From Micromonospora echinospora (GTDB taxonomy: Bacteria; Actinomycetota; Actinomycetes; Mycobacteriales; Micromonosporaceae): DNA of 64,000 nucleotides. Below, piece after piece: positions 1 through 17,205 of this stretch (position 1 is its first letter; each line of letters starts with the position of its first letter). The translations under genes and the position numbers were made by a program. The notes under the pieces are model-generated. The model searched no databases, was not told the DNA's origin, and saw only the letters and a list, made by a program, of their open reading frames with translations. Location of the stretch: contig NZ_JACHJC010000001.1 of assembly GCF_014203425.1 (NCBI RefSeq), forward strand, positions 1,736,001-1,800,000, in the 5' to 3' direction.

Positions 1-245
1 GCGGCCACCCCGACCGGCGGCAGGCCCAGCGCGTAGTACCCGAGAATGGCGACCGCCGTGGCCAGCAGCGCCGGCACCGGCCACCGCCGGGCGCACAGCA
101 CCAGCCCGCCGAGCCCCGCGCCGAACAGCACGGCGAGCGCCGCGCCGCCGGCAGCGGGCCGCTCGGCCGCCACGGCCACCGCGACCAGGCCGAGCGTGGC
201 CGCGGCGAGCAGCGCGTCGGCGCGTCCGGGTGAGGTGTCGGGCAC
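1..245 (-). CDS. Sensor histidine kinase, N-terminal fragment (cut by window edge)
   Basis: Reading the minus strand from a GTG at 245 gives about 81 codons of an Ala/Leu/Val-rich membrane region. It contains two or three hydrophobic segments separated by short Arg-containing turns (CARRWPVPALL) and then runs off the left edge. The pattern matches the N-terminal membrane sensor of actinobacterial NarL-type histidine kinases, like the complete kinase at 43373-44599. No catalytic part is visible, so the assignment rests on resemblance. It is divergent from the gene starting at 415. Confidence 0.5.
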   Translation of the reverse strand, partial: MPDTSPGRADALLAAATLGLVAVAVAAERPAAGGAALAVLFGAGLGGLVLCARRWPVPALLATAVAILGYYALGLPPVGVA

Positions 246-414
246 GCTTCGAGCCTAGGTCCGCGCGGCCCCTCGCCGCTGTCGTCCGCAGGCGTCAGGG
301 ACAACCCCGAGGCGTACGCCGAGAAGCGACAACCGGTCGCGCGGCCACGCGGACGACGGCCGCCGGCTGCCGACCTAGCGTCGATGGCGTCCCCAATTCG
401 TGAGGAGAACCCTC

Positions 415-987
415 GTGGTACGCACAAGACTGACCTGGATCGCCCTGATTGCGATGGTCTGGGCATCGATGATGTCGTTCGGCGGGGTGGCCGCCGAGAC
501 AGTCATGCTCTATCCGAACATCTTCAACGACGCGCCCGCCTCCCTCGACCGGGCCCGCGAGTTCCTCGTCCACGGCGGCCCGCACGACTACTTCCCGCCG
601 CTCGGCGCGTCGGTGATCCTCAGCAGCGTCGCCGCGACGCTGCTCACCTGGCGCGACCGCCGGCTGCGCTGGTGGGTCGCCGGTGCCACCGCAGTCTTCG
701 TCGTCTGCGAGTTCCTGTTCTCGGCTGTCTTCTTCTGGCCGCGCAACGAGATCATGTTCGTGGACCCGGTGGGGACGCACTCGCCGGAGTACCTGCGGCA
801 GGTCGCGGCGGAGTTCGTCGCCGGGCACTGGGTGCGCTTCGCCGGAGGGGCGGTCACCGCCGTACTGGCGTTCGTCGCGCTGCTGCGGTTCGTGCGCTTG
901 ACCGCGCCGGCCTCGGCATCGGATTCCGTGCCGGTTTCGGGACCGTCGTCGGTTTCGTCTTCCGCTTCTTCGGAGGTGACGCGATGA
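415..987 (+). CDS. Small multi-pass membrane protein, DUF1772/anthrone-oxygenase-like
   Basis: This protein of about 190 residues has four hydrophobic segments. An N-terminal helix is followed by a loop containing YPNIFNDAP, then paired helices around LSSVAATLL and AVFVVCEFLFSAVFFW, and a last helix near residues 150-170. The Ser/Val-rich tail looks disordered. Layout and size resemble DUF1772 (anthrone-oxygenase-like) proteins, but the match is from memory and no reaction can be assigned. GTG at 415 is preferred to GTG at 400 because GAGGAG at 402-407 sits 7 bases upstream of it. The stop overlaps the next ATG (ATGA), so the two genes are probably translationally coupled. Confidence 0.6.
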   Translation: MVRTRLTWIALIAMVWASMMSFGGVAAETVMLYPNIFNDAPASLDRAREFLVHGGPHDYFPPLGASVILSSVAATLLTWRDRRLRWWVAGATAVFVVCEFLFSAVFFWPRNEIMFVDPVGTHSPEYLRQVAAEFVAGHWVRFAGGAVTAVLAFVALLRFVRLTAPASASDSVPVSGPSSVSSSASSEVTR

Positions 988-1622
988 GCGGGGCCCGCCG
1001 TACCCTCGGGTTCTCCTGGCCGGCGCTGGTCGCGCTCGCCGCGCTGGCCGCCCCGCGCGTAGCTCTGCACGACCTGGACGTGGTGCCGGAGGGCACGATC
1101 GTGGCCGCGCTGCTGGCGGTCGGGCCGCCGCTGTGCTGGGTGGCCGCCGTGCTGTGGCGGCGCCCGCCGCGCCCGTTCCTGACGCTTGTCGTGATCGGGG
1201 CGCTGTACGGGGTGTTCCTGGCGGCCGGTCACCAGGTGTTCTGGGACTCGTCGCTGGGGATGGACGCGCCGGGGTTGGCCGGGCTGGCGCCGGGGGCGCG
1301 GGAGGCGTTGTTGCGGGGTGCGGCGGCGATGTCGAGCCTGGTCACCGGAACGGTGGTGGGGGTGGCGGCTGGGGCGGTGGCGGTGCTGCTGAGCCGGGTG
1401 CTGCCTGTACCAGGTGACCCCCACGCTAGCGGCATTTCCATTGGCTCCTTCCACCGCGCCAACCCAGCAACCATGTCCTCCAGGGATTCGACCGACCCGC
1501 GCGCTGTCCTACCCGGGTGTGGCGACCGAGAGATTGTTCAATCACAGCCATCGCCTCAACCCGACGCAGCATCACGTCCTAGACCAGTTCAGTGCCCCTC
1601 TGGCACTCTCTTCGGCCCGTGA
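984..1622 (+). CDS. Hypothetical membrane protein with a foreign, read-through C-terminus
   Basis: Begins at ATG 984, overlapping the previous stop. The first about 145 residues form four hydrophobic segments (for example PALVALAALAAP and LTLVVIGALYGVF) in very GC-rich backbone codons, ending near LLSRVLPVPGDP. The last about 65 residues are Ser/Pro/Gln-rich and hydrophilic, with different base composition. This fits a native membrane protein whose 3' end was replaced when the accessory island inserted near 1415, so that the frame now reads on to a chance stop at 1622. Function unknown. Confidence 0.5.
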   Translation: MSGARRTLGFSWPALVALAALAAPRVALHDLDVVPEGTIVAALLAVGPPLCWVAAVLWRRPPRPFLTLVVIGALYGVFLAAGHQVFWDSSLGMDAPGLAGLAPGAREALLRGAAAMSSLVTGTVVGVAAGAVAVLLSRVLPVPGDPHASGISIGSFHRANPATMSSRDSTDPRAVLPGCGDREIVQSQPSPQPDAASRPRPVQCPSGTLFGP

Positions 1623-1856
1623 ACGCGAAGCGATTTCGGCGGGAGCGAAGGCCGTTCCGTCGGCACAGACAACGCTTGTCGTATAGGGCTGCCACCCGAT
1701 ACAGGCCGCAAGCGCATCTAGCGCTGAGGTTCCCGAGGCGGCTGCGCAAGGCCCTGGAGCCCGGCTCCACAGAACGATGCTCTGGCTGCGGAAGGCGGAC
1801 CGCGTGTCGGCCAGCCCCCATTGGCTAGGGGCAGTGGAGCCGGCTAGTGTACTGCC
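1415..1856. other. Left island junction, no recognisable gene
   Basis: Composition drops sharply from the GC-rich backbone after about 1415. Apart from the read-through tail of the preceding gene, no convincing ORF, tRNA or att core was found. The interval presumably carries the promoter of the methyltransferase at 1857, although no clear -35/-10 pair could be picked. Confidence 0.4.
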
Positions 1857-2936
1857 ATGCCGAAGATCTTCCGTGTCGTGGACCTCTTCGCCGGGTGTGG
1901 GGGGCTTACGGAGGGCCTTCGAAAGACCGGTCGATATGATCCTGTGGGTGCGGTTGAGGTCGACCCAGCTGCTGCCGCCACGTACGCCGAAAACTTTGGC
2001 TCGAAGCACATCCGCCCTGAGGGTATTGCCGAGTGGCTGGACGCAGGGCATGCGCCAGAGGCGGACGTTGTCGTGGGCGGGCCTCCATGCCAGGGCTTCT
2101 CTAACCTGGGGAAGCGGCTCGATGATGACCCCCGCAACGAACTTTGGCGAGAGTACTGGCGGGCACTCACTCTGATCAAACCCAAGGTATTCGTGGTCGA
2201 GAACGTGGGCAGGTTCCTCCGCAGCGCCCAGTACCAGCAGATGAAAGCTGCTGCTGGGAGCGGGGAACTGCGGGATTACGAGCTGCGCGAGGATGTCGTC
2301 GTCGCAGCAGCCTTCGGCTCGTCGCAGATTCGACGCCGGGCGATCGTCATCGGTACACACCGCGATCTGAAGCCGATCGATATTCCGGTTTCCCACCTCA
2401 ATCGAGCGAAATGGAAGACGGTGGCAGAGGCGTTGGCTGATGTGCCGCGCTTCGTTCCCGAAGAAAGAAAAAGTTTGCCATCGGGCTCAAAGACGTACTG
2501 GGGCAAGAAGATCCCTGGGCCCTTTGCAAGCCGGTCACTTCACATTACTCGTCACTACGAGGAAATTTCTCGCCAGCGGTTCAAGGCGATCCCTGCGGGC
2601 GGGAATCGGTTCGATCTCCCTGACCATCTTAAGTCGCCATGCTGGTTGAAACACACGACAGGCGCAGCGGACGTTATGGGTCGCCTGCGATGGGATCGCC
2701 CATCGGTGACGATCCGAACGGAGTTCTTTAAGCCGGAAAAAGGGCGCTATCTTCACCCGACCGAAGACAGAGCCCTGACCCACTACGAGGCAGCGAAGCT
2801 GCAGGGGTTTGATGATGACTTTGTCTGGTGCGGGAACAAGCTCCAGATTGCCCGTCAAATAGGAAATGCCGTTCCGGTCGAACTCGCCAGAGCCATCGGC
2901 CAGCACGTAGCGGACGCGTTGGACGAGCAGATGTGA
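1857..2936 (+). CDS. DNA (cytosine-5-)-methyltransferase
   Basis: A 359-residue C5-cytosine methyltransferase that would use S-adenosylmethionine to methylate a specific site and protect host DNA. The canonical motifs occur in order: motif I DLFAGCGG (AdoMet binding) near residue 9, motif IV GGPPCQGFS with catalytic Cys78, motif VI ENV, motif VIII QIRRRAIVIG, a central target-recognition region with lower-GC codons, and motif X QIGNAVP near the end. Length and motif set indicate an intact enzyme. It converges on the Vsr gene with an 18-bp gap. Together with the minus-strand operon it forms the modification arm of the restriction-like island. The recognition sequence cannot be read from the protein. 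Confidence 0.95.
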   Translation: MPKIFRVVDLFAGCGGLTEGLRKTGRYDPVGAVEVDPAAAATYAENFGSKHIRPEGIAEWLDAGHAPEADVVVGGPPCQGFSNLGKRLDDDPRNELWREYWRALTLIKPKVFVVENVGRFLRSAQYQQMKAAAGSGELRDYELREDVVVAAAFGSSQIRRRAIVIGTHRDLKPIDIPVSHLNRAKWKTVAEALADVPRFVPEERKSLPSGSKTYWGKKIPGPFASRSLHITRHYEEISRQRFKAIPAGGNRFDLPDHLKSPCWLKHTTGAADVMGRLRWDRPSVTIRTEFFKPEKGRYLHPTEDRALTHYEAAKLQGFDDDFVWCGNKLQIARQIGNAVPVELARAIGQHVADALDEQM

Positions 2937-2954
2937 GGGGCGGGCGAACGGCTT

Positions 2955-3416
2955 CTATCGGCTTGTCATCGGCTGCTGAACATTGCGTGACGTCTGGAGC
3001 GCGCGGCGATGCTGGCTCAGGATCGCTTCTACTGCCTCAGTCGGATCCTCGTGCTCCCATATCCTGATGACTGACCAACCCATTCCTGCAAGGTGCGCAT
3101 TGGTCTCGGAGTCCCGGATTTGGTTTGCTTTCAACTTCTCAGACCACCAGTCGCTGTTGGAAGCAGGCTTGGTGCGATGTTCGGGACATGAATGCCAGAA
3201 GCAGCCGTCAATAAAGACAGCTACCCGTAAGCGGGTAAACGCAATATCTATAGAACGTCGCGGCATGGCGGGCACCGGCCAGGCCACACGATAGCGGTAA
3301 CCGCGAGCGTGGAGCAACCTTCGTATCGATACCTCCGGTGCTGTGTCCTTGCGGCGCTGGCGGCTCATTCGACGAGAGACCCCGGACGAGGCCGGGACGG
3401 GCAGACGGGTCGCCAT
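2955..3416 (-). CDS. vsr: Very short patch repair endonuclease (Vsr)
   Basis: A 153-residue Vsr-family nuclease that nicks next to T:G mismatches formed when 5-methylcytosine deaminates. Family hallmarks are visible: MSRQRRKDTAPE with a following R-LLHARGYRYRV helix, the metal-site region FIDGCFWHSCPEH, N-DWW-EKL, and WSVIRIWEHE. It is the last gene of the minus-strand operon, 29 bp after the preceding gene, and converges on the cytosine-5 methyltransferase. That partnership is classic for this enzyme. In GHKL/Z1 loci Vsr-like nucleases may also act as an effector nuclease (inference). Confidence 0.93.
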   Translation of the reverse strand: MATRLPVPASSGVSRRMSRQRRKDTAPEVSIRRLLHARGYRYRVAWPVPAMPRRSIDIAFTRLRVAVFIDGCFWHSCPEHRTKPASNSDWWSEKLKANQIRDSETNAHLAGMGWSVIRIWEHEDPTEAVEAILSQHRRALQTSRNVQQPMTSR

Positions 3417-3445
3417 GAGCAGAGATTACCCTGAGAGATAGAGCG

Positions 3446-4255
3446 TCAGGTACGCGGACCCTTGCTGTTGCCCATGCCAAGATTCGTCTTGGCGATAAGC
3501 CGTCTAGACTCGTTGCGCTGTTCTCGGACAAGCTCCAAGAGCTCTTGCTGCGTCATCCAGTCGAGATTCAGAAAGGCGGTGAGGCGGAGAAGCCGCCTCA
3601 GGGAGTCGCGATGGATGGCCCTCGCTGGCACTCCTTCGTCTATGTCAGCGTCCTCTGCGTGGCAACGAACAATTGCGCGAACCAAGCCAGGAGTCGTTGA
3701 AATTGACCGTCGACGAGCCATTACATGATCCAAGTCGGCTTCCCCGAGCCACGGCAATAGCTCGTATGGATCCGCGAGGGACGGATCAAAGAGCACATGT
3801 GCGCGCGTCCACAATCTAGCGAGACTGTGTCTCGTCAGGTCGGTGCCCTTGAAACGGTCCGGAAGGTAAAGACCGTTGCGCATGGGAAATCGCCATGCAC
3901 ATATGTGGGGAACCAGAACGAGGGAAAGAAATGCCCAGACCTGGCGCTGCGACGCCTCGCCCGGAACCATGCCCGACCGTTGGTGCAGGTAGCGGGCAGT
4001 CGCTCTGTCGAATTCGTTTCTGGCGGCCGTTGTAGGCGGATTGGGGAAGCCGCCAGCTTCAGCTAGCCTCTCTAGCTCATTGCCAAGCGCGCGCAATTCA
4101 TCAGGGCTGACGCGAGTGCCGCCGGTTGCGGCATAAACTGCTCGGCGGGAGATTACACTGGCCGAAGCTGCAATGTCTTCAGGGTTGCGGCCGTGAAGGC
4201 TAGAAAACAATCGTTCCGCCTCGTTCGGAAGCAGCCGCGGATATAGGACGCTCAC
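3446..4255 (-). CDS. Defence-operon protein of unknown function (possibly DUF6339)
   Basis: 269 residues, mostly alpha-helical, soluble, with no signal peptide. Visible features are an N-terminal ISRRAVYAATGG segment, a Trp/Arg-rich core (ICAWRFPMRNGLYLPDRF) and RLWTRAHVLFDP, then Arg-rich helices toward the C-terminus. No catalytic motif is recognisable. It may belong to DUF6339, but that is recalled, not verified. Its start overlaps the stop of the upstream gene by 4 bp and Vsr follows closely, so it is a fixed member of the GHKL/Z1 operon. A structural or target-recognition subunit is a reasonable guess. Confidence 0.75.
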   Translation of the reverse strand: MSVLYPRLLPNEAERLFSSLHGRNPEDIAASASVISRRAVYAATGGTRVSPDELRALGNELERLAEAGGFPNPPTTAARNEFDRATARYLHQRSGMVPGEASQRQVWAFLSLVLVPHICAWRFPMRNGLYLPDRFKGTDLTRHSLARLWTRAHVLFDPSLADPYELLPWLGEADLDHVMARRRSISTTPGLVRAIVRCHAEDADIDEGVPARAIHRDSLRRLLRLTAFLNLDWMTQQELLELVREQRNESRRLIAKTNLGMGNSKGPRT

Positions 4256-5181
4256 GGCTTCCTCCCTTTCGGGAACAACAGGCTGTTCTGCACGGCGGCG
4301 CGCAACTGAGATGGGTCACGCCTGCGCTCCCCCCGAAGCCGGTCCATCGCATCCCTGAGCGTCTCATTCGGCATCTTCAGGAAGACCCTGATCAGTCCGT
4401 GAACCAGAGCGGCAGTAGTCACCTCCCCGTCGCGGTCCGCCGCGTCTGCTTCCGCCGGGAACTCATCGTCTTCCAACGCCCGGCCAACCAAGTCGCACAC
4501 CACATCCACCGCGAGCGCCTCCCAAAGGACCGACGCCTGCGGCTCGTCGGGATTGCGCACAGCTTCCCCGACCGTTCCGTTATCGTCATTCAGTAGGACG
4601 AGTAGGTTACCCATCGCGGCACTGGTCCATTGGGCTGAGTCCACGCTGATATACCAAGCGGCTTGCTCTGGAAGACCTTGCTCCTTGAAGCTAACGGGAG
4701 CCACCGGTAGGAGGCCGGCCCCGCCTTCCAGGCTGAGCGACGCGGAGTCTCTCCACAGCACGCTACCCGCTCTGCGGGCGACGAACGGGGCGGCATCCTT
4801 GGTGTCTGCCGCCAGAACAATTGTGGTTTCCACTGTAAGGTCGCCCGCGAGATCAGCGCCGAAGATTTCGACCTCGATTATTCTCTCTATGGGTCCCAGA
4901 ATGCCGTTCGTCGGTATCGGCACAAATATCGCGGCGCGACGTATAAGGGAGGTGGACGGCCAGTATCGCACGTTGAGCGCGAGCGACGCTGCAACGTCCA
5001 AACCGCAGTCCGCGAGAAGGGCTGGCAGATCTATGCGCATGCGCCGAGCAAGCCGCAAACGGGTACTGTAATCCCAGCTCTTGATATGATCAGGAGCCGA
5101 CACGCCGGCCTCTACATGGACCCACGGATCCCCCGCGATGTGAGCATTCGCCATGCGATACGGGTAAGCGTATCTAACCAT
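4252..5181 (-). CDS. Defence-operon protein of unknown function, partner of the GHKL ATPase
   Basis: About 309 residues. I do not recognise the family. Residues 1-200 look beta-rich (alternating hydrophobics such as AAIFVPIP, IIEVEIFG, VETTIVLAA, SVLWRDSASL). The rest is helical, with an acidic stretch (DDEFPAEADAADRDGE) and a basic C-terminus. No membrane segment or nuclease motif is seen. ATG at 5181 is preferred to the upstream in-frame ATG at 5217 because AAGG lies 6 bases before it and it overlaps the ATPase stop by 8 bp, implying coupled translation and probably a fixed stoichiometry with that ATPase. Confidence 0.75.
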   Translation of the reverse strand: MVRYAYPYRMANAHIAGDPWVHVEAGVSAPDHIKSWDYSTRLRLARRMRIDLPALLADCGLDVAASLALNVRYWPSTSLIRRAAIFVPIPTNGILGPIERIIEVEIFGADLAGDLTVETTIVLAADTKDAAPFVARRAGSVLWRDSASLSLEGGAGLLPVAPVSFKEQGLPEQAAWYISVDSAQWTSAAMGNLLVLLNDDNGTVGEAVRNPDEPQASVLWEALAVDVVCDLVGRALEDDEFPAEADAADRDGEVTTAALVHGLIRVFLKMPNETLRDAMDRLRGERRRDPSQLRAAVQNSLLFPKGRKP

Positions 5182-7048
5182 TGTCGACCTTCTCGACAGA
5201 AATTGACACCGCCGCATCTGCTATTGGCAGCACCAGCAACTCCAGTTCACTCGTGCCTTCACCAAGATCGACGAACTCGCCGCACGTCTCACTCACGTCC
5301 GAGCGCCACCCCAAGATTTCTGGAATGGCACCTCCGACAGGCCTAGCCGTCTCCAACGCACCCTCACCGGTCACCACCCCGACCTCGCCCCGAAGCCTGG
5401 CCGGACCGAAAGCTCGCACCCTCTGAACAAGAACCACCTTTCCCGCCCTTGAGGCGAAGAATGGAGAGCCAATGAGGATCGGCTTCCTCCCGGCCCGGAG
5501 CCCAGGTTGTGTACCGACTCCGCGCCCGCGGGCACCTGCGCCGGAGCCGCCGTCGGCCGAAGCCGCGAAGTTCGCTCTCCCTTCATGGGGAACGCCGTCG
5601 GTCGGAGGGGCGGGAAAGGCCGCCCCATTTCCACCGACGCTGGCGACGAGGAATCCGAGCCGATGAGCAATCCCTCCGACCGGCACTGCAACGGTCTGTG
5701 GAGTCTGTGTTCTCGGCTGTGCAATAGCTGCGCACCGTTCAAGAATGCGTCTGCGCGCTACCCTGACGTAGGTTGCGTGGCGTCCTGTCAGTTGAGCGTC
5801 AACCCACGCATCGTGTGTCGGCGGCTCTGACCTGGAAAAGATCGGATCCACCTCGTCGTTCACCTTGAAGACAGCCGTATATCCCGCCTCGGGATGGGGC
5901 TTGGGCGGGCCTGGCAGATACTGAACGACGAGATCTGGGCGACGCATGAGCGCTACGTGGTGAGGGGAACCTGCGATTCCCAACTCGGCAGCGGCAGGAG
6001 AGTCGGTTTTCGAGCCGAATGTATTTTGGAGGCCAAAGCGTCCCAAATCTTGTCGTGGTCGCAAGCAGGAAACGGTGGTTGCCTGCTCGCTCGTTGCTTC
6101 ACGATACGCCGCCGCGAAGTTGGCCAGAACGGGGTCGTCGTGTTCACCGGGAACAGGTACCGCTACGCCGTGGACGGAGACTGAGACGTGCATACGAACC
6201 GAGCGATCGGCTAAAGTAAGCGGCCACAGATTCCAGGCAGCGGCGCCTGCCAGATGGCGCCCTGCGGATTCCGGAGACATATCCCCGGCCTCGTCTTCTG
6301 GGACCGACGGGTCAGAAAGGTCCGGATCGAGTACAACAACGGTAGTGCCTGTTTGGCCCGAACCGAAGCCCGGCAATCCCAGCCGATGCGCAATGGTGTC
6401 GGCGGCCTGATCAGAAAACGGATCGCAATGTGTTGTGCCAGGTAGCCCCCACCAGTGGCGGCCGGTGTACGGCACCCCCTTCGACACAGTTGACCCCAGC
6501 AGCGCTGAACCGATTAGCCGAGAACGAATGCGAAACCCATCACGGAACCGTGTGTAGATCAGGATGGTGCGGACCCGCGAGGCCAGGAAGAACGCTCCTT
6601 TTCCATAGCCGTAAGTCCCTCCTCCGCCGTCGATATCCTGTCGTTCTCCACTGTTCAATACGAATGACAGCCAGCCCCGCTGGTTCGGCTCTGCGTATAT
6701 ATCTGATCGCGTAGGCCCCCCTAAGCCGGAGGTGCCACGGTCCGAAACGGCTAGATATCGGATCGTAGGTCCGCGAAGCAGTGCAGGAAGTGCCCGAGGG
6801 GCGCTGGCGGAAGGGGGGGCGTTCGGCGCAAGTAGTTCCACCCATGCATGCCGATGCGCAGGGGACACCGTCACAAGATCGAGGCCAAATGAAACAGCGT
6901 CTGAGGTTTTCGCGTCCCAGCTGTTCTGTGCGGACTCGCGAACGAGAACAGTCAGTAGGGAGAGTGAGGGGCGACCTAGCTGATTTAGGAGACCTTCCCC
7001 CGTTATTCCGCCATCAGGACGAAAAGGCTGAGAATACCATCCGGCCAT
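5174..7048 (-). CDS. MORC/MutL-like GHKL ATPase of a restriction-type system
   Basis: A 624-residue protein with an N-terminal GHKL (Bergerat-fold) ATPase. The N-box is ESAQNSWDAK (Glu38, Asn42, Asp45), the second motif SDRGTSG (Asp103, Gly108), and the glycine-rich lid GGGGTYGYGKG at 141-151. A longer, less conserved C-terminal part follows, with a Gly-rich linker near residue 500. The preserved Glu of the N-box suggests active ATP hydrolysis. Relatives of this type, linked to eukaryotic MORC proteins, are predicted to form ATP-dependent clamps that remodel or loop DNA in restriction systems. It lies 2 bp from the PD-(D/E)XK gene and overlaps the next gene, so it belongs to the Z1-led operon. 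Confidence 0.85.
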   Translation of the reverse strand: MAGWYSQPFRPDGGITGEGLLNQLGRPSLSLLTVLVRESAQNSWDAKTSDAVSFGLDLVTVSPAHRHAWVELLAPNAPPSASAPRALPALLRGPTIRYLAVSDRGTSGLGGPTRSDIYAEPNQRGWLSFVLNSGERQDIDGGGGTYGYGKGAFFLASRVRTILIYTRFRDGFRIRSRLIGSALLGSTVSKGVPYTGRHWWGLPGTTHCDPFSDQAADTIAHRLGLPGFGSGQTGTTVVVLDPDLSDPSVPEDEAGDMSPESAGRHLAGAAAWNLWPLTLADRSVRMHVSVSVHGVAVPVPGEHDDPVLANFAAAYREATSEQATTVSCLRPRQDLGRFGLQNTFGSKTDSPAAAELGIAGSPHHVALMRRPDLVVQYLPGPPKPHPEAGYTAVFKVNDEVDPIFSRSEPPTHDAWVDAQLTGRHATYVRVARRRILERCAAIAQPRTQTPQTVAVPVGGIAHRLGFLVASVGGNGAAFPAPPTDGVPHEGRANFAASADGGSGAGARGRGVGTQPGLRAGRKPILIGSPFFASRAGKVVLVQRVRAFGPARLRGEVGVVTGEGALETARPVGGAIPEILGWRSDVSETCGEFVDLGEGTSELELLVLPIADAAVSISVEKVDNG

Positions 7049-7050
7049 AG

Positions 7051-8073
7051 CTACGCTTCCAAAAACTGTCTCACGCCCTGGTGCAGCGAATAATCCGAGT
7101 GTCTGACAGTGTCAAGGTCGACGACGTAGTCGACGCCACAGATTCCTGTCGGAACTAGGCCCGACGGGAAGCTGGCGGGTGTGATGCTCGGAAAACTATC
7201 GTCTACCTCGAACAGTCGCTGGTCGACCAGCGAAAAGCTTGAGGCCTGGAGATCCGGAGCAGTCAAGGAGTATATTCCTAGCCTCTCCAGGCACGAAATA
7301 ATCTTGTACGGCTCGCCGACGCTTAGGCAACGTTGCGCGATCGCTGGAATGTCGTCTGCGCTTCCAGGTGCAGACGTGGCTAGTTTCAGCCACACAACCT
7401 TTAAGGTCCCTGATGGCGGTCGTGTTAGTTGTTCAAACCCGTGAACATGAATAGTCCGGCCCTGGGGCGAAGTAGTGGTCTTCACCTCGATGGCATTCCG
7501 ATGGGTGCGAAAGTCATGAGCGGCCCCACCCGGGCCCGTCCATGTGTCAGCTGCTGCTGAATCGATGGAGAGGAGATGCTCTAGCACCAGGAGCTCACCG
7601 TAGAGACCCGCGAGTCGTTGAAGGGTCCACCTCTGCTGACCGCCCAAGAGGGCGCGCCAACCCTCCAAGACCTTAGGTACTGCTTGTTCCGCCGGATTGT
7701 TCGAATGGGCGAGGGACATGCATATGTCAGCGACCAGGCCAGTGAATACTCCAGCAAGGGACCTGCGCCTGCATTCGAGATCAAGGAATGTAATCGCCTC
7801 ATCGCCGACGACTAGCGTTCGTGTCGCGAGATGGACCCCCGAACTCCGCCTGTCTTCGAGGTTGTTCACTTCCCTGCCGACCGGCACCAAAAGGTGCGGC
7901 AGCCCATAGGAGTCTAGTGCTAAGCGCAAAGGGCCAGAAGCAGTGCAGAGCGCAAGTTCCGCGCTCTGCAGCGTTCCACCACCGGCGGGAGAGAGCTCTT
8001 CGCTCAGTTCCTGCCAGATCGCCTCAAGGGTGCGTCGCAGTGCCGCTTCCTGGCTAGGGAACTCAAGTGTCAC
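7051..8073 (-). CDS. PD-(D/E)XK motif nuclease (DUF4420-type)
   Basis: 340 residues carrying a restriction-endonuclease-fold core: Glu160 in GLYGELLVLE, Asp187 in HDF, and EVK (Glu196, Lys198) followed by TTTS. This is the order expected of a PD-(D/E)XK active site, and all metal-binding residues are present. The flanking regions match the DUF4420 layout as I recall it. The start overlaps the Z1 stop by 4 bp and the GHKL gene follows after 2 bp. This is the most likely DNA-cleaving effector of the operon, with Vsr as a second nuclease. Confidence 0.85.
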   Translation of the reverse strand: MTLEFPSQEAALRRTLEAIWQELSEELSPAGGGTLQSAELALCTASGPLRLALDSYGLPHLLVPVGREVNNLEDRRSSGVHLATRTLVVGDEAITFLDLECRRRSLAGVFTGLVADICMSLAHSNNPAEQAVPKVLEGWRALLGGQQRWTLQRLAGLYGELLVLEHLLSIDSAAADTWTGPGGAAHDFRTHRNAIEVKTTTSPQGRTIHVHGFEQLTRPPSGTLKVVWLKLATSAPGSADDIPAIAQRCLSVGEPYKIISCLERLGIYSLTAPDLQASSFSLVDQRLFEVDDSFPSITPASFPSGLVPTGICGVDYVVDLDTVRHSDYSLHQGVRQFLEA

Positions 8074-10703
8074 GATGCGAAGACCTCACTGTCGAGATCT
8101 TGGCGGAGAACCGAGACGTCCTCTGGCTCGTCGTCAGTCGCGGCAGGGAATACTCGCGAAAGGTCCGCCGCCAGATAATCATACTCAACCTCCACGTCAT
8201 TGCCCCGCATTGGCTTTGGGAATACGAGCGCGGCACCCCAGACCACTTTCGCGCCTTCGATGTTCAAATCTGCGCGATCTCTTCTGGTGGCCTTCGAAAG
8301 CGAATCGATGGGGTAGAGGAGGACCAGGCCCTTCTCGGGCTGTTGTCTCGAACGCTCATTCTGCAGGATGACACGGTTGATGTCAGTTAGCTTGCCGAGG
8401 TCCAGGTCTAGGCCCTCATCACGGGATCCGGTCAGGGTTTTGATGTCGGCGATATCGTCATTGCCGGACGCGGTCAAACGAGTGCGTACCACCGTACCGA
8501 CTACACTGCCGTCCGGAAGCTCTACCTGAGGTCGCTGGGCCTCTGGAGGGTCATCCGCGGGAGCGATTCCGAGCACGCCCACGTTCCATGTGCGAAGGCC
8601 GCCGGTTTCCATCCGCTTCGCGATGTATGCGGAGATCAGCGGTCCTGACGCATCGGTTGACTTCTCGTGGAAGCGATACGTTCCGACGAATCGGAGGATT
8701 CGTTCGCCCGGCACATTCCGCCACAACCTGCGGCTGGGGGGCATCGATCCATCCTGTTTGCCTTCTGCTGCGCTCGCTTCCAAGAGACGCATGACTGAAT
8801 CAGTGTTGTTGGAGTGCCATATCTTCGCCTTGTGGTCCGGACCAGCGGGGAAGTAACGACTCTCCACCAGGGCGCCCCCGTAGGCGGCGGCTGCGCGGAC
8901 GGCTGCCTTCTGCTTACTTGGTGCCGTTACCCGCATTTTTGGATGGCATCGTATGCGGACCGCCATTTCCAAGGGGGTCTTGTGCTCGACGAGGAGTCGA
9001 TCGATCTCGGACCGCATCTCCGCTTCTACGGTTGCTAGGTGAGTAAACCACCGACGCATCTCGGCCGGCATGTAAATGCGCGGAAGGTCTTTATATCCCG
9101 GCCGGTAACCGAACCACCGGCCCATCTGGAGCAATGTGTCGTATACGTCGCTGGATCTGACGAAGACACTGACGACTAGGCCCTCCAGGGTGAGGCCACG
9201 CGAAAGTGTGTTACCGCCAACTGCGATAACCGTCGCCGCGCCCGACTCGTAGTCGAGGCGGTTCGTGCTGCGATAGTGGTCCATGATTATCTTGGTGTCG
9301 TCAATCGCCTTCTCTAAAAATCTTACAGCTTCTGCAAAGCTTACTTCAGTCTCGCAGAGCTCATCGGCAGGTACGCGCCGAGTCTCGCTTTCCCAAAGCT
9401 CCCGCAGCTCTGCAGCCAACTCTCGGTCGCCGCACGCAACCTGCTCCGCGACTTCGTTCCGGAAATGCTCTAACGGAGCCTTATATGAGTCGTGTACTCT
9501 CGTATCAGAGTGGGCATGGATCAACATGGAGGAGTGGTCTGCGCGCGATGATCGTACTCGCCGCGCGGCGGTCGCCAGCCAGAACCAAAGAATTGCTCTG
9601 CGTAGCGATGGCGTGACTTGTGGCTCGAAGGCTGCGATTTCCGCCCTGCGCGACGGGCGCAAGTTGCCCACCTCTTTGTCGGGTATCTCCCTGATCATGT
9701 CGAGTCCGCCGGGCACGTCCGCAGGATCTTCTCCATCAAGCGGCGAGCGGCCAAAGAGCGTTTCAGGGCCTTGGTACTCTTCGTTCCTGGGCAAGCTCAG
9801 GATAAAGTCTTTCGGGTAAAAGCTTTCTCGGCCTGCTGGATCCGTGAGTAGATTCGCAAAAGGTGTAGCCGTATAGCCGACGTAGCAGACCCGCGGAAGT
9901 TGTTCGAGTACGCCGGCGATCAAAGGGTTTATGGTCTTCGTTGCTATTGTTGCCTGGTCCGCTTCATCGTCAATCAGGAGTGCCGGGCAGTTCTGGAGAT
10001 GGCTGTGTGCACTGGATAGCCACTCCTTCAGCTTGCGCAGCACAACTGCATTCTTCTTAACCACCAGTAGTAGGTGTTGATCTTTGGCGGCGAGGAGTGC
10101 TGCGGGGTTGGCCGGCGGAATGAAATCGTGTTCAGGTGTCGTGATCTGATGCCACAGTGTCGGATTTAAACGGACGAGGTCTCGGATGAGCCTGGCTTGA
10201 GTCTGGCGCCTGAGTGCATTATGGATGCCCGAGAGTACGATAAACATGCGGTAGCCGCGATCTGCGGCCTTGCAAGTAACGGCTGTGAAGTTGCTGGTTT
10301 TGCCGGATTGAACATGGCCGACCACGAGCCCACGCGAGTCGAACGCGGGAGTCGCTGGGTGATCCAGCATGGCGACGACCTTGTCGGACGCGTCGTCGAT
10401 CGCGTCGACGGCGTCCTGGTCAAGGGTCTTCTGCAGATGTGCTTTGAAGGCGGGCCAGTTGCGGTCGTCCTTGCGAGGGCCTGCGTACCACGGAGTGGCA
10501 TTTTCTCGCCCCAGACCCAAGGGCTCCTTGAGCTCTAGGATCTTCGTTGTCTCTACCTCATGCCGTTTGATCAGCTCATCAATGAGGTCCTCCGGGACGA
10601 AGAGGCTGCGGAGTTGCTGCGTGACTCGATGGGGTGGAGCGCTGTCCAGGAGGCTGCGATATGACTCCCATGCGCCGCTGATGCGGGGGTCACTCGTCGA
10701 CAT
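8070..10703 (-). CDS. Z1 domain superfamily II helicase/ATPase
   Basis: About 877 residues, first gene of the defence operon. Helicase motifs are clear: Walker A GHVQSGKTSNF, Walker B LLIDDEAD, motif III YTATPFAN, motif V GGNTLSRGLTLEG, and the Z1 signature QMGRWFGYRPGY. The C-terminal third is a less conserved accessory domain. ATG at 10703 is chosen because GGAG lies 6 bases upstream. A longer form starting at GTG 10835 adds 44 low-complexity residues and has only a poorly spaced AAGG. The predicted role is ATP-driven DNA translocation or strand separation for the nuclease partners. Direct repeats upstream may mark its promoter. Confidence 0.9.
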   Translation of the reverse strand: MSTSDPRISGAWESYRSLLDSAPPHRVTQQLRSLFVPEDLIDELIKRHEVETTKILELKEPLGLGRENATPWYAGPRKDDRNWPAFKAHLQKTLDQDAVDAIDDASDKVVAMLDHPATPAFDSRGLVVGHVQSGKTSNFTAVTCKAADRGYRMFIVLSGIHNALRRQTQARLIRDLVRLNPTLWHQITTPEHDFIPPANPAALLAAKDQHLLLVVKKNAVVLRKLKEWLSSAHSHLQNCPALLIDDEADQATIATKTINPLIAGVLEQLPRVCYVGYTATPFANLLTDPAGRESFYPKDFILSLPRNEEYQGPETLFGRSPLDGEDPADVPGGLDMIREIPDKEVGNLRPSRRAEIAAFEPQVTPSLRRAILWFWLATAARRVRSSRADHSSMLIHAHSDTRVHDSYKAPLEHFRNEVAEQVACGDRELAAELRELWESETRRVPADELCETEVSFAEAVRFLEKAIDDTKIIMDHYRSTNRLDYESGAATVIAVGGNTLSRGLTLEGLVVSVFVRSSDVYDTLLQMGRWFGYRPGYKDLPRIYMPAEMRRWFTHLATVEAEMRSEIDRLLVEHKTPLEMAVRIRCHPKMRVTAPSKQKAAVRAAAAYGGALVESRYFPAGPDHKAKIWHSNNTDSVMRLLEASAAEGKQDGSMPPSRRLWRNVPGERILRFVGTYRFHEKSTDASGPLISAYIAKRMETGGLRTWNVGVLGIAPADDPPEAQRPQVELPDGSVVGTVVRTRLTASGNDDIADIKTLTGSRDEGLDLDLGKLTDINRVILQNERSRQQPEKGLVLLYPIDSLSKATRRDRADLNIEGAKVVWGAALVFPKPMRGNDVEVEYDYLAADLSRVFPAATDDEPEDVSVLRQDLDSEVFAS

Positions 10704-10884
10704 CAAGCGCTCCGACCTGAGGGGCGCCTTGGCCAGCCGGGGAAGAGCGACGGCGTCATCACTTGTGGCCGGAGGGCGCGTAAGGATGAGCTTCCGTGAC
10801 CCTGCCGTCGGAGGCCCTGGCTGCGGGATCTTCACAGAGCCTTAGTAGCACTCGGATCGCTGGAGCGGAAGATGCGCTATCTGA

Positions 10885-10901
10885 ACGTTGCGGGACGTTG
10901 C
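10885..10901. promoter_or_regulatory. Short direct repeat upstream of the Z1 operon
   Basis: ACGTTGC occurs twice with a 3-base spacer (10885-10891 and 10895-10901), 182 bp upstream of the preferred Z1 start and 50 bp upstream of the alternative GTG. A regulator or RNA-polymerase-proximal operator is possible, but only the repeat itself is observed. Confidence 0.3.
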
Positions 10902-10945
10902 CTGGATGACCGATGGAGGCAGAGCAACTGCTCTATCCTTCTGTT

Positions 10946-11029
10946 GTCCCGGTTGGTAATCGCAGGGCCATGCACTTTGGCAACTGGTATCGGCGGAGAT
11001 CCGTAGACCTGTGGTAGGTCCCGGTTGGT
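10946..11029. repeat. 12-bp direct repeat upstream of the defence operon
   Basis: GTCCCGGTTGGT occurs at 10946-10957 and 11018-11029, 72 bp apart. It lies in the intergenic region ahead of the minus-strand operon. Two equal copies at roughly seven helical turns would suit cooperative repressor binding, which is speculation. Confidence 0.4.
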
Positions 11030-11286
11030 TGCTGCGGGGTGAGTCCGAGGGCTGGTTGCAGCGAGTTGAAGTGGCAGCGTGCGGTGGGTCCGGCATCGCT
11101 GCCACCGTCTACCGGTCGTCCGTTGAGACCGCCTCTTGGCCGATGCCCGGCTGGCGCCGGCGTGGACCGGGAGCGCCGGTGGGGAGCAGCGTCGAGGGCG
11201 GATCAAGTAGTAGGCGCAGCCAGCTGATTGGACGGTGCGGCTGTGCATCCAGCAGGCCTTGAGCGGCCGCTACCTGGTCCTCCGCG

Positions 11287-11673
11287 GTGGCTGCGAGAGG
11301 GGTGACCTGCGCGCTGTGGCAGGCCGACCTGCCGGACCAGAGATTCATGCGCGCAGGCGGGATCCAGCTTCTCGCAACGGTGGAGGTCACTGTCGATATC
11401 CCGAGACTCCGTCGTCGGCTGCTCGGTGACGAGGTGATCGTAGATAGCCGCCAGAAGCTTCCGTCACGCCGTCTGTCCCAAACTCGACACTCAGATGCGA
11501 TGCTGCGTCAGTGGCTCTCTGATGCGGCCTTGAACAGCGGTGCGCCCTTCTTGTGGGCTGAAGCCACCCGGTCGGTGCTCCGGCGTCGGTCGCCGGTAGG
11601 CGTTTTCATTCCGGGACTGGATCCTGCGTCCCGCGCCATCGGCCCAGTGTTAGCCGCAGGTGGAAGCGCCTAG
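11287..11673 (+). CDS. Doubtful hypothetical ORF, truncated by an old IS
   Basis: A 128-codon ORF from GTG 11287, predicted mixed alpha/beta with several Arg-rich stretches (RLRRRLLGDE, RSVLRRRSP). No family is recognised and no ribosome-binding site is evident. Its TAG stop at 11671-11673 coincides with the apparent left end of the decayed IS5-family element, so this may be the remains of a longer gene interrupted there. It may equally be a chance ORF. Confidence 0.25.
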   Translation: MAARGVTCALWQADLPDQRFMRAGGIQLLATVEVTVDIPRLRRRLLGDEVIVDSRQKLPSRRLSQTRHSDAMLRQWLSDAALNSGAPFLWAEATRSVLRRRSPVGVFIPGLDPASRAIGPVLAAGGSA

Positions 11674-11735
11674 AGCACATTCGTAAGTCGCCTTGGACTG
11701 GTGCGTGTACGGCGTGGCGGTGGTCGATGGATGAA

Positions 11736-11788
11736 GAGGTCTCCGGTAAGTGGGTTAGCGACAAGCAAACCTGAATACCGGAGACCTC
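11736..11788. promoter_or_regulatory. Inverted repeat abutting the transposase start (old copy)
   Basis: GAGGTCTCCGGT at 11736-11747 pairs perfectly with ACCGGAGACCTC at 11777-11788 across a 29-base loop, ending directly before GTG 11789. The same arms occur in the intact copy with a different loop. Confidence 0.7.
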
Positions 11789-11942
11789 GTGGCCAGCCTA
11801 GCGGCGGCGCGGCATCACCTAAGCGACGTCCAGTGGCGGCACCTGCCTCCATTGCTGCCCGCGGAGTCGTCGGTGGTGAAGGCCGTGCAAGTGGACCAGG
11901 GGGCAGATCATCGACGGCATCCGGTGGTGGGTACGCACCTGT

Positions 11943-11985
11943 GTGACGTGACGTGACGTGACGTGACGTGACGTGACGTGACGTG
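11943..11985. repeat. Pentanucleotide tandem repeat (GTGAC)x8
   Basis: Eight perfect GTGAC units at 11943-11982 plus a partial unit. They lie exactly where the older transposase would encode Arg-Asp-Val (cgt gac gtg) in its WRDVPA motif, so this looks like replication-slippage expansion inside a dead transposase gene. It is not a CRISPR array. Confidence 0.9.
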
Positions 11986-12061
11986 CCCGCGAACTAAGGC
12001 GTGTTTCGTAACTCGGGGTTGGCCGGTTGAAGTCACGGCGTGGCGGTGATCGATAACTGAA

Positions 12062-12115
12062 GAGGTCTCCGGTACTTGGTACAACGACCAAGAAGCACCA
12101 TGCACCGGAGACCTC
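12062..12115. promoter_or_regulatory. Inverted repeat abutting the transposase start (intact copy)
   Basis: GAGGTCTCCGGT at 12062-12073 pairs with ACCGGAGACCTC at 12104-12115 across a 30-base loop, and the GTG start follows at 12116. In read-through transcripts this stem-loop would occlude the start region. That would suit the protection known from other IS elements against transposase expression driven by outside promoters. Confidence 0.7.
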
Positions 12116-13009
12116 GTGGCCACCTTAGCGGTGACGAGGCGGCATGACCTGACTGACGCGCAGTGGGCTGTCCTGGCCCCGTTGCTGCCTGCTGCGTCGT
12201 CTACCGGTCGGCCGCCGAAGTGGGAGAAACGGCAGCTCATCGACGGGATTCGGTGGCGGATCCGGATCGGTGCGCCGTGGCGAGACGTGCCAGCGGAGTA
12301 CGCGCCCTGGCCGACGATCTACGGACTGTTCCGTCGGTGGCAGCGCGATGGCACGTGGGACCGAATCTTGTCAGCGTTGCAGGCGCAGGGCGACGCCCGG
12401 GGACGCATCGACTGGACGGTCAGCGTGGACTCGATGACCAGTCGCGCTCACCAGCACGCCGCAGGTGCCCGCACCGACGGTCATCTGCAGAAGGAACCAC
12501 CCGGCGGGGTTCATGACGAGCCGGCCGATCACGGGCTGGGCCGCTCCCGTGGCGGGCTGACGACCAAGACGCATCTGGCCTGTGAGCAGGGCCAGAAAGT
12601 CTTGTCCCTGATCGTCACCGCCGGGCATCGCGGGGACAGCCCGCAGTTCATCCCGGTCCTGCGCCGCATCCGCGTGAACCGCCTCGGTGTCGGCCGGGCC
12701 AGGACCAGACCGATGCTGGTGCTGGCCGACAAGGCCTACACCAGCCGCGCCAACCGCAGATACCTGCGCTCTCGCGGGATCCGGGCGTGCATCCCGAGCA
12801 AGAAAGACCAGGACGCCCACCGCAAAGCCAAAGGCTCCCACGGCGGGCGCCCACCGGCGTTCGACCCGCAGCTCTACCGGCTACGCCACGCTGTCGAGAA
12901 CGGCATCAACAGGCTCAAACGCCACCGCGGCGTCGCCACCCGCTATGACAAGTTGGCCGTCCGGTTCCACGCCGTCCTGACCATCACCATCATCACCGAA
13001 TGGCTCTGA
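12116..13009 (+). CDS. IS5-family transposase (DDE)
   Basis: 297 residues from GTG 12116. An N-terminal helical DNA-binding region ([34 protein letters not shown]) is followed by an RNase H-fold catalytic domain. DDE residues are Asp105 in VSVDSM, Asp205 in VLADKAYTS, and Glu261 in [12 protein letters not shown] with the usual downstream Lys/Arg signature. It is full length and apparently active. A single frame covers the whole protein, so no programmed frameshift is needed. Confidence 0.95.
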
Positions 13010-13029
13010 CCGGCTTATGAAACACGCCT

Positions 13030-13362
13030 TAAGCCCCCATGGCAAACGTTGTATCGGTGGTTCCGCCGGTGGCAGCGTGATGGCGCCTGGCTCGGATCCT
13101 GGCCGGGATGCGAGCTGCCGCCGATGCGGCCGGGCGCATCGACTGGAGCGTCAGCGTCGACTCCACGATCAGCTGCGCCATCAACACGCGGCCGGTGCCC
13201 GTCGTGACGGGCGCCAGCAGAAGAACCACCGGGTGGGATCTACGCGAGCCTGCCGATCATGCGCTGGGCCGTTCGCGGGGCGGATGGACCACCAAGACAC
13301 ACCTTGCCTGCGAAGAGGGCCGCAAGGTCCTGGCCACCGTCGTCACGGCCGGGCCCACCTGA
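13030..13362 (+). pseudogene. Decayed IS5-family element, right part (transposase fragment)
   Basis: Continues the older transposase after the nested element: KPPWQTLYRWFRRWQ, then after a frame disruption VSVDSTISCAINTRP with the first Asp, and [20 protein letters not shown]. It ends near 13362 before the second Asp and Glu, so the old copy is also truncated on its right side and cannot be active. Confidence 0.85.
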
Positions 13363-13385
13363 CGGCAGTCGCTTCGCGAGGACGA

Positions 13386-14285
13386 TCAGACGAGATCAGC
13401 AAATGGCTTCCAGTGTGGACTGTGTTCGCTCTGCGCCAATGACCGCAATCGCTTGGCGAACTCGGCCGCAACACTCGCCGAACTTGCGAGAAGCGGCGTG
13501 GCAGCAGCGATCATTTTGAGCTCGCGGGCTTCTCGCAGAAGGGGCCAGTTGCGGTCGGACATCACGTCGTATTCGTACGCCTCGGCGAGCGCCCGATGCG
13601 CCCCGGTCTTTCCGAAGCGGGCCTCGCCCACAGCTACCGCTGCCAGGTCCACCTGCCAAGGCCCAAGACAAGTGGCGTCGAAGTCGCAGAGCAGGATGCC
13701 GCACGATGCGTCCCGGAGCAGGTTGCCGACGTGTGCGTCCCCGTGGATGAGTGACTGCTCCACGCGTTGGTTGAGATCGGCGACCTGCGGCTCCAAGCGG
13801 TCGCACCACGTCATCAAGTAGTCGTGGTCCTCTGCGCTCAACCCGTCGGCATCTGCCAGGCGTCGACGCGCGTCCCCGATCGGATCCCAGTGGGCCAGCG
13901 GGAAGGGCGGGGGTCCGAGCGCATGAAACCGCCGCAGTGCCGAGCCGAGGTCATCCACCGTGGGAGCAGGCACGGCCGGCGGCACGTAGGTCCACACAGA
14001 GGCCACCAAGCCGGCGGCCTCAGCCGGTTGCGTCACGCCCGGTGCCAGCCGGATCGTCGGTGCGCCCAGCTCGGCGAACCATCGCGCCAGTTGAACGACC
14101 TTTGTCACCCGGTCCTGGAGCCGGTGGGTTCGTGCGATCCGGATGACGAGCCCCGCGCCAGGCAACGCGAACACGGCGTTGTTGGTGAGCCGCAGGAGCC
14201 GGGCATCTTGGATCGGCACGTCAAGACTGGCCGCGATCTCCCGCATGGCACAGGTCATCGCCTCTTCCGAGAACCGTCCGCTCAT
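13386..14285 (-). CDS. Aminoglycoside-phosphotransferase-fold kinase (APH family)
   Basis: 299 residues with the protein-kinase-like APH fold: an N-terminal lobe (LPGAGLVIRIARTH), the catalytic loop HGDAHVGNLL, and the metal-binding LCDFDAT. Its substrate is unknown, and such proteins phosphorylate very diverse small molecules. The start overlaps the stop of the XRE/TPR regulator by 4 bp, a recurrent actinobacterial pairing, so the kinase is probably part of that regulator's circuit and not a dedicated resistance gene. The last about 20 codons are lower in GC, next to the island edge. Confidence 0.85.
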   Translation of the reverse strand: MSGRFSEEAMTCAMREIAASLDVPIQDARLLRLTNNAVFALPGAGLVIRIARTHRLQDRVTKVVQLARWFAELGAPTIRLAPGVTQPAEAAGLVASVWTYVPPAVPAPTVDDLGSALRRFHALGPPPFPLAHWDPIGDARRRLADADGLSAEDHDYLMTWCDRLEPQVADLNQRVEQSLIHGDAHVGNLLRDASCGILLCDFDATCLGPWQVDLAAVAVGEARFGKTGAHRALAEAYEYDVMSDRNWPLLREARELKMIAAATPLLASSASVAAEFAKRLRSLAQSEHSPHWKPFADLV

Positions 14286-15718
14286 ACCGTCGCCGCCGCC
14301 CGGGCGATGAGTGTCCGCTCGAAATCGGCAACCGCGGGAAGGTGACGGTGCCGCCCGAGGTCACGACGCAGATTGACAACTCGATCAACGACGCGCCTGG
14401 AACTCAACGCTCGCGACTGTTCGACCACACGAACGCCGACACTGACGGCCCGATCAGGCTCGTCGGCGAGGAAGAGCGCGCTGCACAGTCCGACCTCGTT
14501 CAGGACCATGCTGCGGATGTTCGCTGGGCCGAAGGCGACAATCGCGTCCTCGACGCTCTGCACAGCCTGTGCCGTATGAGTGCCGACCTGGCGGGCCATG
14601 TCCCGGTATACGCGACCGTACTGCGCGAGCAGCTCGCCACGGTCGTAGAAGGCCATCCAGGCCGGCTCACGCTCGGGATCCACACACTCGAACTGATCAC
14701 TCGCCCGGCCGAGGAGGGCCAGCGCGCTTCGGTGGTCGCCGAGTGCGGCGGTTGAGGCGGCCTCCGCGCCCCAGAGCAGCGCCTTCACCGCCGGGGTTGC
14801 CCGGGATCCCAGCTCAGCGTGTGCCAGCCGCAAAGCGGCCAGAGCGTCCTGGTTGTGCCGAAGGTGTTGCAGTTGCTTGGCCTGCGAATAGCGGATCAGG
14901 GCCGCCAGCGGAGCGTCGTCACCGGACATCGCGGCCCGCTCGCCGGCGGCGAAATGCCGCTGAGCGTCCGCGTGTCGGCCGGCGTCGAGTGCGGTCCAGC
15001 CGGCCAACTGTCGAGCCGCCGCGATGGCCGCGACCAAGCGGGGTGTCAGCCCGGGCCAGTGTGACCAGTCGAGCATGCGGTACACCGACTCCGCGAACCG
15101 GGCGACCTCCCGATAGAGCAGACCGCCACCGCATTCGTAGTCGACCGACCGGTAGAGCTCCAGCACCGCATTGAGCCGAGTCACGTCCGCGCTGCCGATG
15201 CGGCGAGGACGGGGATCCTCAGTGGCTCCGACCAGCCCGGCTCCCGCCGACACCGCCGCGATGCCGGCCAGGAGGGTTCGCCGGCCCAGGTCTGGTGCCG
15301 CGCGGCTCCCGTCGGCCCGAGCGCTGACCGGGGAGTCTGGACCGACGGCGAACCAGAGAGATCCCGGCGGGATGCGGAGCACGATCGCCCAATGCGCCAG
15401 CCGGTCGAGATGCACCAGGGCGGGGCCGTTCTCGATCCGGCTCAACTGCGCCTGCGTGATCCCCAGCCACCCCGCGACGACGCTCTGCGGCAACGGGTTC
15501 CGCCCGTGGTACGGGTGGTGGCGGTACGCCCGGATCACCTGCCCGAGGTGCCGTCCGGCCAGCGCCGCCCGGAGCGGCTCATGGTCCCAGAACGAGTCGG
15601 GTACCGCGGGCGGCGTGCTGAGGCGGTCGCGCTCGGCGGCCTGACACGGCGCGCAGCGTCCCGTGTCGTTGTCGCGCGCCAAGCGCCCGCCGCAGCGGGG
15701 GCAGTTCGCAGGTGTCAC
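14282..15718 (-). CDS. XRE-type helix-turn-helix regulator with zinc ribbon and TPR-like domain
   Basis: About 478 residues. The N-terminus has a CPRCGG...CAPCQ zinc ribbon. A helix-turn-helix follows (QSVVAGWLGITQAQLSRIENG), then a twin-Arg/hydrophobic stretch RRTLLAGIAAVSAGAG, then a long alpha-helical TPR-like C-terminus that would sense a ligand or partner. GTG 15718 is chosen because AGG lies upstream and the zinc ribbon begins at once. It overlaps the phosphotransferase gene and is divergent from the small-protein cluster at 16029, which it probably controls. Confidence 0.85.
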   Translation of the reverse strand: MTPANCPRCGGRLARDNDTGRCAPCQAAERDRLSTPPAVPDSFWDHEPLRAALAGRHLGQVIRAYRHHPYHGRNPLPQSVVAGWLGITQAQLSRIENGPALVHLDRLAHWAIVLRIPPGSLWFAVGPDSPVSARADGSRAAPDLGRRTLLAGIAAVSAGAGLVGATEDPRPRRIGSADVTRLNAVLELYRSVDYECGGGLLYREVARFAESVYRMLDWSHWPGLTPRLVAAIAAARQLAGWTALDAGRHADAQRHFAAGERAAMSGDDAPLAALIRYSQAKQLQHLRHNQDALAALRLAHAELGSRATPAVKALLWGAEAASTAALGDHRSALALLGRASDQFECVDPEREPAWMAFYDRGELLAQYGRVYRDMARQVGTHTAQAVQSVEDAIVAFGPANIRSMVLNEVGLCSALFLADEPDRAVSVGVRVVEQSRALSSRRVVDRVVNLRRDLGRHRHLPAVADFERTLIARAAATV

Positions 15719-16028
15719 CGGCAACCTCGCCGTTCTCGGAGAACCTGTGTCCGAAGTCGAGCCTAGCCATTCAACCCGTTTCGGAGCGGCCCGGTATACG
15801 CACCGTGCATATCGCCGGATGTCTCGCGGCGGTGACCGAGCGTATGCGGTGTGTGCATGACGACCACGATCATCAGGGCATGCGGCTCCTGTCGGGAAGG
15901 ACCGAGAGTCGGCGCATGGCCCGGGGCGGGTGCCGGGCTCCGGTGGAACCGTGTCCCCGATCGCGGCTCCCGCCGTCCCCGCCCGCTCCGGCGCCACTCC
16001 ACGAGAACCGACCCGGAGGCGCCAGCCG
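15719..16028. promoter_or_regulatory. Divergent promoter region
   Basis: 310 bp between the XRE regulator (minus) and the small-protein cluster (plus). It contains imperfect palindromic tracts such as GTATACGCACC...GTGCATAT and GCGTATGCGGTG. GGAGG at 16015-16019 is the ribosome-binding site of the next gene. No certain -35/-10 pair was identified. Confidence 0.4.
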
Positions 16029-16259
16029 ATGTCCGCCGTACTCGCCGATTTCCCCGTCCTCACCCCGGTCACCGACGAGGATCTGCTCGTCGCCGCGCTG
16101 GCCGTGCGCGTACATGTGCCTGAGCACTGGCCGCAGGGACCGCTGTGCCGCAGCGAGCGCGTCCCGTACCCCTGCCGGCTGGCCCGGTGGGGGAGGGCGA
16201 CGCTCGCCGCGGCCGGGTTGCCCGACGACGCCGTGGCGGCCGGGATGGTGGCGTCGTGA
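16029..16259 (+). CDS. Small CR/PCRL cysteine protein, paralogue A
   Basis: 76 residues, ATG at 16029 with GGAGG 9 bases upstream. It has the pattern VTDEDLLVAALAVRVHV-W-G followed by CR, PCRL, RWGR and GL, shared with the proteins at 46850-47416 and 56075-56386. Two conserved Cys and an invariant RWGR suggest a small metal- or nucleic-acid-binding fold, but no known family is recognised. It is coupled to the DivIVA-like gene by an overlapping GTGA. Confidence 0.7.
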   Translation: MSAVLADFPVLTPVTDEDLLVAALAVRVHVPEHWPQGPLCRSERVPYPCRLARWGRATLAAAGLPDDAVAAGMVAS

Positions 16260-16498
16260 TCTACGTGACCGGGGAGCGGGTGCAGGCGTACCAGGTGCGC
16301 AGCGCCGTCTTCGACACCCGCTGGCGCGGGCTGGACCCGGTGCAGGTGCACGACTACCTGCGTCGGGTCGCCGACGAGATGGACCGCCTGCACCGGGAAC
16401 TGACCACCGCGCGCACCGAATCGGAGCGCGTCCGTCAGGCCCTCCGGCAGTGGCAGTCCCGCCACAACGGCTGCCGGCGACGCGGCCACGATGGCTGA
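16256..16498 (+). CDS. DivIVA-domain small protein
   Basis: 80 residues from GTG 16256, overlapping the previous stop. FDTRWRGLDPVQVHDYLRRVADEMDRLHREL is typical of the DivIVA N-terminal membrane-association and coiled-coil region, followed by a coiled coil (TTARTESERVRQALRQW) and a basic tail. It lacks the long second coiled coil of true polar-growth DivIVA/Wag31, so it may be an adaptor, not a polarity determinant. Confidence 0.75.
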   Translation: MIYVTGERVQAYQVRSAVFDTRWRGLDPVQVHDYLRRVADEMDRLHRELTTARTESERVRQALRQWQSRHNGCRRRGHDG

Positions 16499-16745: not shown

Positions 16746-16764
16746 CGCCGGTACCGTCCCCGGC

Positions 16765-17145: not shown

Positions 17146-17155
17146 GGCGGCGCGT

Positions 17156-17205
17156 GTTAAGAAGGGGCCCCGCCTCTACCGGAGACGTTAAAAGGGGGCC
17201 CTTCC
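17156..17205. repeat. Paired GTTAA...GGGGCCC palindromic repeat
   Basis: Two similar units: GTTAAGAAGGGGCCCC from 17156 and GTTAAAAGGGGGCCCTT from 17187. Each contains a GGGNCCC palindrome. The second supplies the purine-rich ribosome-binding site of the TTG-started helicase gene at 17206, so folding could mask it. From memory, repeats of this type recur in Micromonospora intergenic DNA. Confidence 0.5.

Follow-up and report, generated by a model that had tools for sequence, protein, structure and literature searches.

Gene content and conserved residues

The stretch analyzed here, called the window, comprises 64,000 nt from Micromonospora echinospora (GCF_014203425.1, contig NZ_JACHJC010000001.1, positions 1,736,001-1,800,000, forward strand) and carries a seven-gene cluster, listed below in window coordinates with protein lengths in amino acids (aa).

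1857..2936, + strand: DNA (cytosine-5)-methyltransferase, 359 aa (PF00145, 8.7e-56; TIGR00675, 160.4 bits, cut-off 100.65)
2955..3416, - strand: Vsr-type mismatch endonuclease, 153 aa (TIGR00632, 115.6 bits, cut-off 97.85; solved Vsr 1cw0, 6.3e-12)
3446..4255, - strand: DUF6339 protein, 269 aa (PF19866, 3.6e-13; PDC-M33C, 5.8e-10)
4252..5181, - strand: unknown protein, 309 aa (AlphaFold2 [AF2] model with a predicted local distance difference test score [pLDDT] of 89.2 and a predicted template modeling score [pTM] of 0.62)
5174..7048, - strand: predicted GHKL ATPase of the paraMORC2 type, 624 aa (motif alignment; PDC-M33A, 7.5e-11)
7051..8073, - strand: DUF4420 PD-(D/E)XK nuclease, 340 aa (PF14390, 1.2e-40)
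8070..10703, - strand: superfamily 2 (SF2; Z1) helicase (PF10593, 3.6e-65)

The cluster is intact. All seven frames are complete and tightly spaced, and the Vsr gene converges on the methyltransferase gene, which bears out the first-pass annotation of a seven-gene locus whose operon converges on a methyltransferase. Its further claim that the motif sets are intact also held, the catalytic residues being kept across relatives, which were counted over 80 core loci (L numbers). The GHKL protein contains, in order, E38-x3-N42-xx-D45, D103-R-G, GGGTYGYGKG, GT235 and E408xxxH412; E38, N42, D45, D103, G143, G144, G147, G149, T235, E408 and H412 are invariant (80/80). The ExxxH at 408-412, the only one in the window protein, is the signature described for paraMORC2 in the part of Iyer et al (2008; PMC2292703) at hand. 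Since no Pfam HATPase model matched this protein, its putative assignment is based on the motifs and on PDC-M33A. A home-made regular expression for the S5 motif of MORC proper (GhXhhpXXRhl) found no match in it. In the earlier label "MORC-like GHKL ATPase", the first half needs correction: the protein is putatively of the paraMORC2 type. At one relative (L009, 13630-15633, - strand), a second GHKL-like open reading frame (ORF), with an E-x3-N-xx-DA motif recognized by eye, directly follows the core operon.

In the helicase, K135, D245-E247, D249 and D522-G532 were each found in 80/80 loci and A248 in 79/80. The nuclease residues E160, D187, E196 and K198 (the last two as E196-x-K198) are kept in 78/78, and the protein matches the "novel restriction endonuclease" described in the available text of Iyer et al (2008; PMC2292703). 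Among 69 Vsr relatives, H75, C77 and H80 are constant and D70 is kept in 68. The methyltransferase has motifs I, IV (PCQ, Cys78), VI, VIII and X; its best PADLOC model is DruM2/DruM (2.8e-100). The 309-aa protein matched neither Pfam nor NCBIfam and was found at 80/80 loci. Its AF2 model combines an N-terminal immunoglobulin (Ig)-like beta-sandwich with a helical C-terminal half, and a fold search returned only generic Ig-like matches (residues 9-153); it is probably a structural or interaction subunit. The recurrence of the two unknown proteins with the GHKL gene in other genomes, a point raised by the first-pass annotation, was seen, with the core constant.

The cluster is best read, with good though not full confidence, as an ATP-dependent restriction system guarded by 5-methylcytosine (5mC), which would cut incoming DNA that does not carry the host's own methyl marks.

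Methylase classes and the DUF6339 fusion

The search near the cores covered 5mC methylases only. It yielded 123 domains, which single linkage at 50% identity sorted into three main classes, of 57, 39 and 26 members, with one domain left single; the window methyltransferase belongs to class 0. A quick tree built from 81 GHKL rows, with poor support at 23 of 78 inner branches, shows the primary class (0 or 2) switching seven times; over 78 rows, the methylase changes its place and direction 15 times, while the core remains constant. The well-supported set that includes the window has 12 rows from five host families, and families are mixed.

The catalytic cysteine is retained in all class-0 (57/57, window included) and class-2 (26/26) domains. 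It is gone from 5/7 unfused domains of the remaining main class, all five in Nocardia (L060, L067, L068, L078 and L081), and from 32/32 domains of that class that are fused to DUF6339: in 32/80 loci (among L030-L079), the DUF6339 gene continues into a cytosine-5 methyltransferase domain, which Pfam confirmed in the three of these that were scanned. The hosts are Streptomyces, Streptacidiphilus and Kitasatospora. In the cysteine-less domains, motif IV reads G-G/A-L/M-P-R; motif I and the ENV of motif VI are largely recognizable, and motif VIII is mostly changed. A 78-residue stretch past motif VIII, which from the motif layout we take to hold target recognition, shows higher conservation than the remainder of the dead domain in all three pair sets (31 fused rows, as the L056 contig ends before a partner; the pairs lack independence). 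Elsewhere, DUF6339 proteins have DUF3320-like tails (L053 above and L024 below the cut-off) or a weakly HTH_3-like one (L068). The AF2 model of the window protein is all-helical (pLDDT 93.9), and a fold search gave no informative match in the PDB. The fusion, the conserved stretch and the other tails serve as indirect evidence for a part of DUF6339 in site recognition; the protein is a candidate DNA-recognition or adaptor subunit.

A joint and tentative proposal, which as a whole we think clearly more apt to fail than to hold, is that DUF6339 may be the site-recognition subunit of paraMORC2 systems, and that in Streptomycetaceae it would have captured a dead cytosine-5 methyltransferase as a reading head. 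The pseudo-methylase, by binding the target, would direct the nuclease core, while the same sequence would be guarded by live methylases from two classes that are only distantly related; as a corollary, the system would tend to sit at, and replace, a type IV gene that would endanger the system's own 5mC. If true, a restriction complex can recognize its site via a pseudo-methyltransferase, and two distantly related methylase classes are predicted to protect one sequence.

Several observations weigh against the main reading of a 5mC-guarded restriction system. Fold searches yielded no support for a DNA-binding role of DUF6339, and the window copy has neither fused domain nor tail. No core protein co-varies with the change of methylase class, so that co-variation does not pin down the specificity subunit. 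The stretches fetched for L011 and L023 (2/80; the GHKL ORF of L023 is split) and for two plasmid loci (L134 and L135; the Synechococcus stretch stops at the record end) yielded no 5mC methylase, and the core may therefore not always need a neighboring one. Vsr is absent from 11/80 loci, one of which (L038) sits on a short contig; a stand-alone methylase lies no more than 600 bp from it in just 39/68 loci. DUF4420 is absent from L009, L039, L092 and an Agrobacterium plasmid; hence it may not be the sole or essential nuclease. The variation in methylase class and position over one core, untracked by any core protein, and the four cores at which no 5mC methylase was found also speak for a core that is a defense machine independent of unmethylated sites, sensing, for instance, DNA ends, replication forks or topology, with 5mC methylase and Vsr as a separate, often co-travelling module. 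We regard this as unlikely, although worth keeping in view, given that a 5mC methylase occurs within the fetched stretch at 78/80 loci and in 9/9 genus relatives, and that a methylase-fold domain is fused into a core protein at 32 loci.

The probable island and a putative type IV restriction gene

Two further features frame the cluster.

1406..13353, no strand: probable acquired island (unmatched in G314, a close relative whose flanking DNA is ~90% identical)
12116..13009, + strand: transposase of the IS4/5 family, within the island but not part of the operon (PF13340, 7.2e-28; PF01609, 3e-16)

The island, bounded by blastn of window positions 1-20000 against L105 and lower in GC than its surroundings, as had been noted before, was apparently acquired together with the cluster it carries. 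An apparent degenerate transposase piece, seen by eye, follows the transposase (12116-13442). An APH-family phosphotransferase-like ORF (13386-14285) lies at the right edge, with a similar ORF in G314; to the right lie an AAA/superfamily 1-type helicase ORF (17206-18498) with weak similarity to MkoA/MkoC and, at 33579-34763, a protein of the Endonuclease I family that carries a DUF6359 domain. That the island is decayed or silent and has no present function might be thought from its low GC and adjoining transposase pieces; the seven intact frames, tight spacing and retained catalytic residues make this very improbable.

At the island site, G314 carries 3.8 kb of other DNA, including a PLD-ResIII-DUF3427 protein (L105, 1868-4942, - strand) modeled as a putative type IV restriction enzyme. 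SauUSI, a type IV enzyme of the PLD-helicase kind, reads 5mC according to excerpts of PMC7913695. Among the 101 genomes of the genus comparison (G numbers), the type IV gene was found in 2/10 with the system versus 53/91 without it (Fisher's exact test, one-sided p 0.024, two-sided 0.040; shortened genes counted as present, the table examined after the G314 site had been seen, and kinship ignored). Positional replacement alone could explain this table. Strict incompatibility was rejected because G318 and G351 carry both. The exchange has a bearing on a possible mutual avoidance between some restriction-modification islands and nucleases that depend on modification. The same data bear on a reading built on the parallel, drawn in the available text of Iyer et al (2008; PMC2292703), between a GHKL, Vsr and helicase set and MutL, Vsr and UvrD: the patchy distribution (10/101 in the genus), the low-GC island with its transposase, the occurrence of a putative type IV gene at the same site and the missing Vsr genes (11/80) render it very improbable.

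Comparison with known systems

Against defense-system profiles, the GHKL protein matches PDC-M33A of the PADLOC phage defense candidate PDC-M33 (25/25 aligned members, window included) and DUF6339 matches the PDC-M33C model PDLC04586, albeit weakly (~1e-10) and with partial profile coverage; by these matches, the window system is probably a distant relative of PDC-M33. Another PDC-M33C model, PDLC04584, matched nothing in the window's own genome or in 14 controls, which says little, and the 309-aa protein matched no M33 model. MZA, reportedly an anti-phage system from work by Gao et al. in 2020, has two protein families in common with the locus, both far under the NCBIfam cut-offs (MzaC 388.9 of 1500 bits; MzaD 78 of 420 bits). 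MzaA, MzaB and MzaE were not among the matches listed for the other five proteins (for the methylase, the best 25 of 62 rows). A system whose nuclease is EcoRII-like and whose Dcm carries a fused helix-turn-helix is set apart by its description. In the ATP-dependent restriction of CglI and NgoAVII, the nuclease of CglI is of the PLD type with a B3 recognition domain, and its three genes include no GHKL, DUF6339, DUF4420 or 309-aa protein, as far as the excerpts of PMC4267653 and PMC5737866 go. In excerpts of PMC8011034, paraMORC-like HEF_HK genes are associated with Vsr and with 5mC methylases; unlike the window core, these genes have a response-regulator-like partner.

The first-pass annotation called the locus mechanistically uncharacterized, and among the open-licence papers listed none works out the mechanism of the paraMORC2 branch; no open-licence paper on DUF6339 was found. 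Among the literature matches listed, nothing on the seven-gene system appeared under MzaC, DUF4420, PDC-M33, MzaD, PF14390 or MZA or in work on type IV enzymes and hotspots, including the part of PMC12839542 at hand, nor among those for the combination with a catalytically inactive methylase.

The closest precedent is the set of restriction-modification neighborhoods around paraMORC2 predicted by Iyer, Abhiman and Aravind (2008; PMC2292703, cited from the text available). Common to these and the window are a predicted GHKL+S5-type ATPase with ExxxH, a cytosine methylase, Vsr, an SF2 helicase with DThhQXuRhFG and a restriction endonuclease-fold nuclease with E-D-ExK; the distinct helicase, the nuclease, methylase and Vsr were all found alongside the GHKL gene. 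The same text names neither DUF6339 nor the 309-aa protein and gives no core synteny count and no dead-methylase fusion. The first-pass annotation, which had credited Aravind and colleagues with foreseeing such loci, was right in its observation and largely right in its main idea; as a whole its interpretation is partly supported, and the label "seven-protein version" needs correction. The general kind was predicted in 2008, when GHKL-ATPase restriction systems were placed as relatives of the MORC silencing factors of eukaryotes, and the locus adds one more member that fits: an intact actinobacterial paraMORC2 copy, with a specific proposal for what one of the unknown subunits may do. To that prediction, the present analysis adds a measured conserved core, the fusion of DUF6339 to a dead methylase and, at one site, an exchange with a putative type IV gene.
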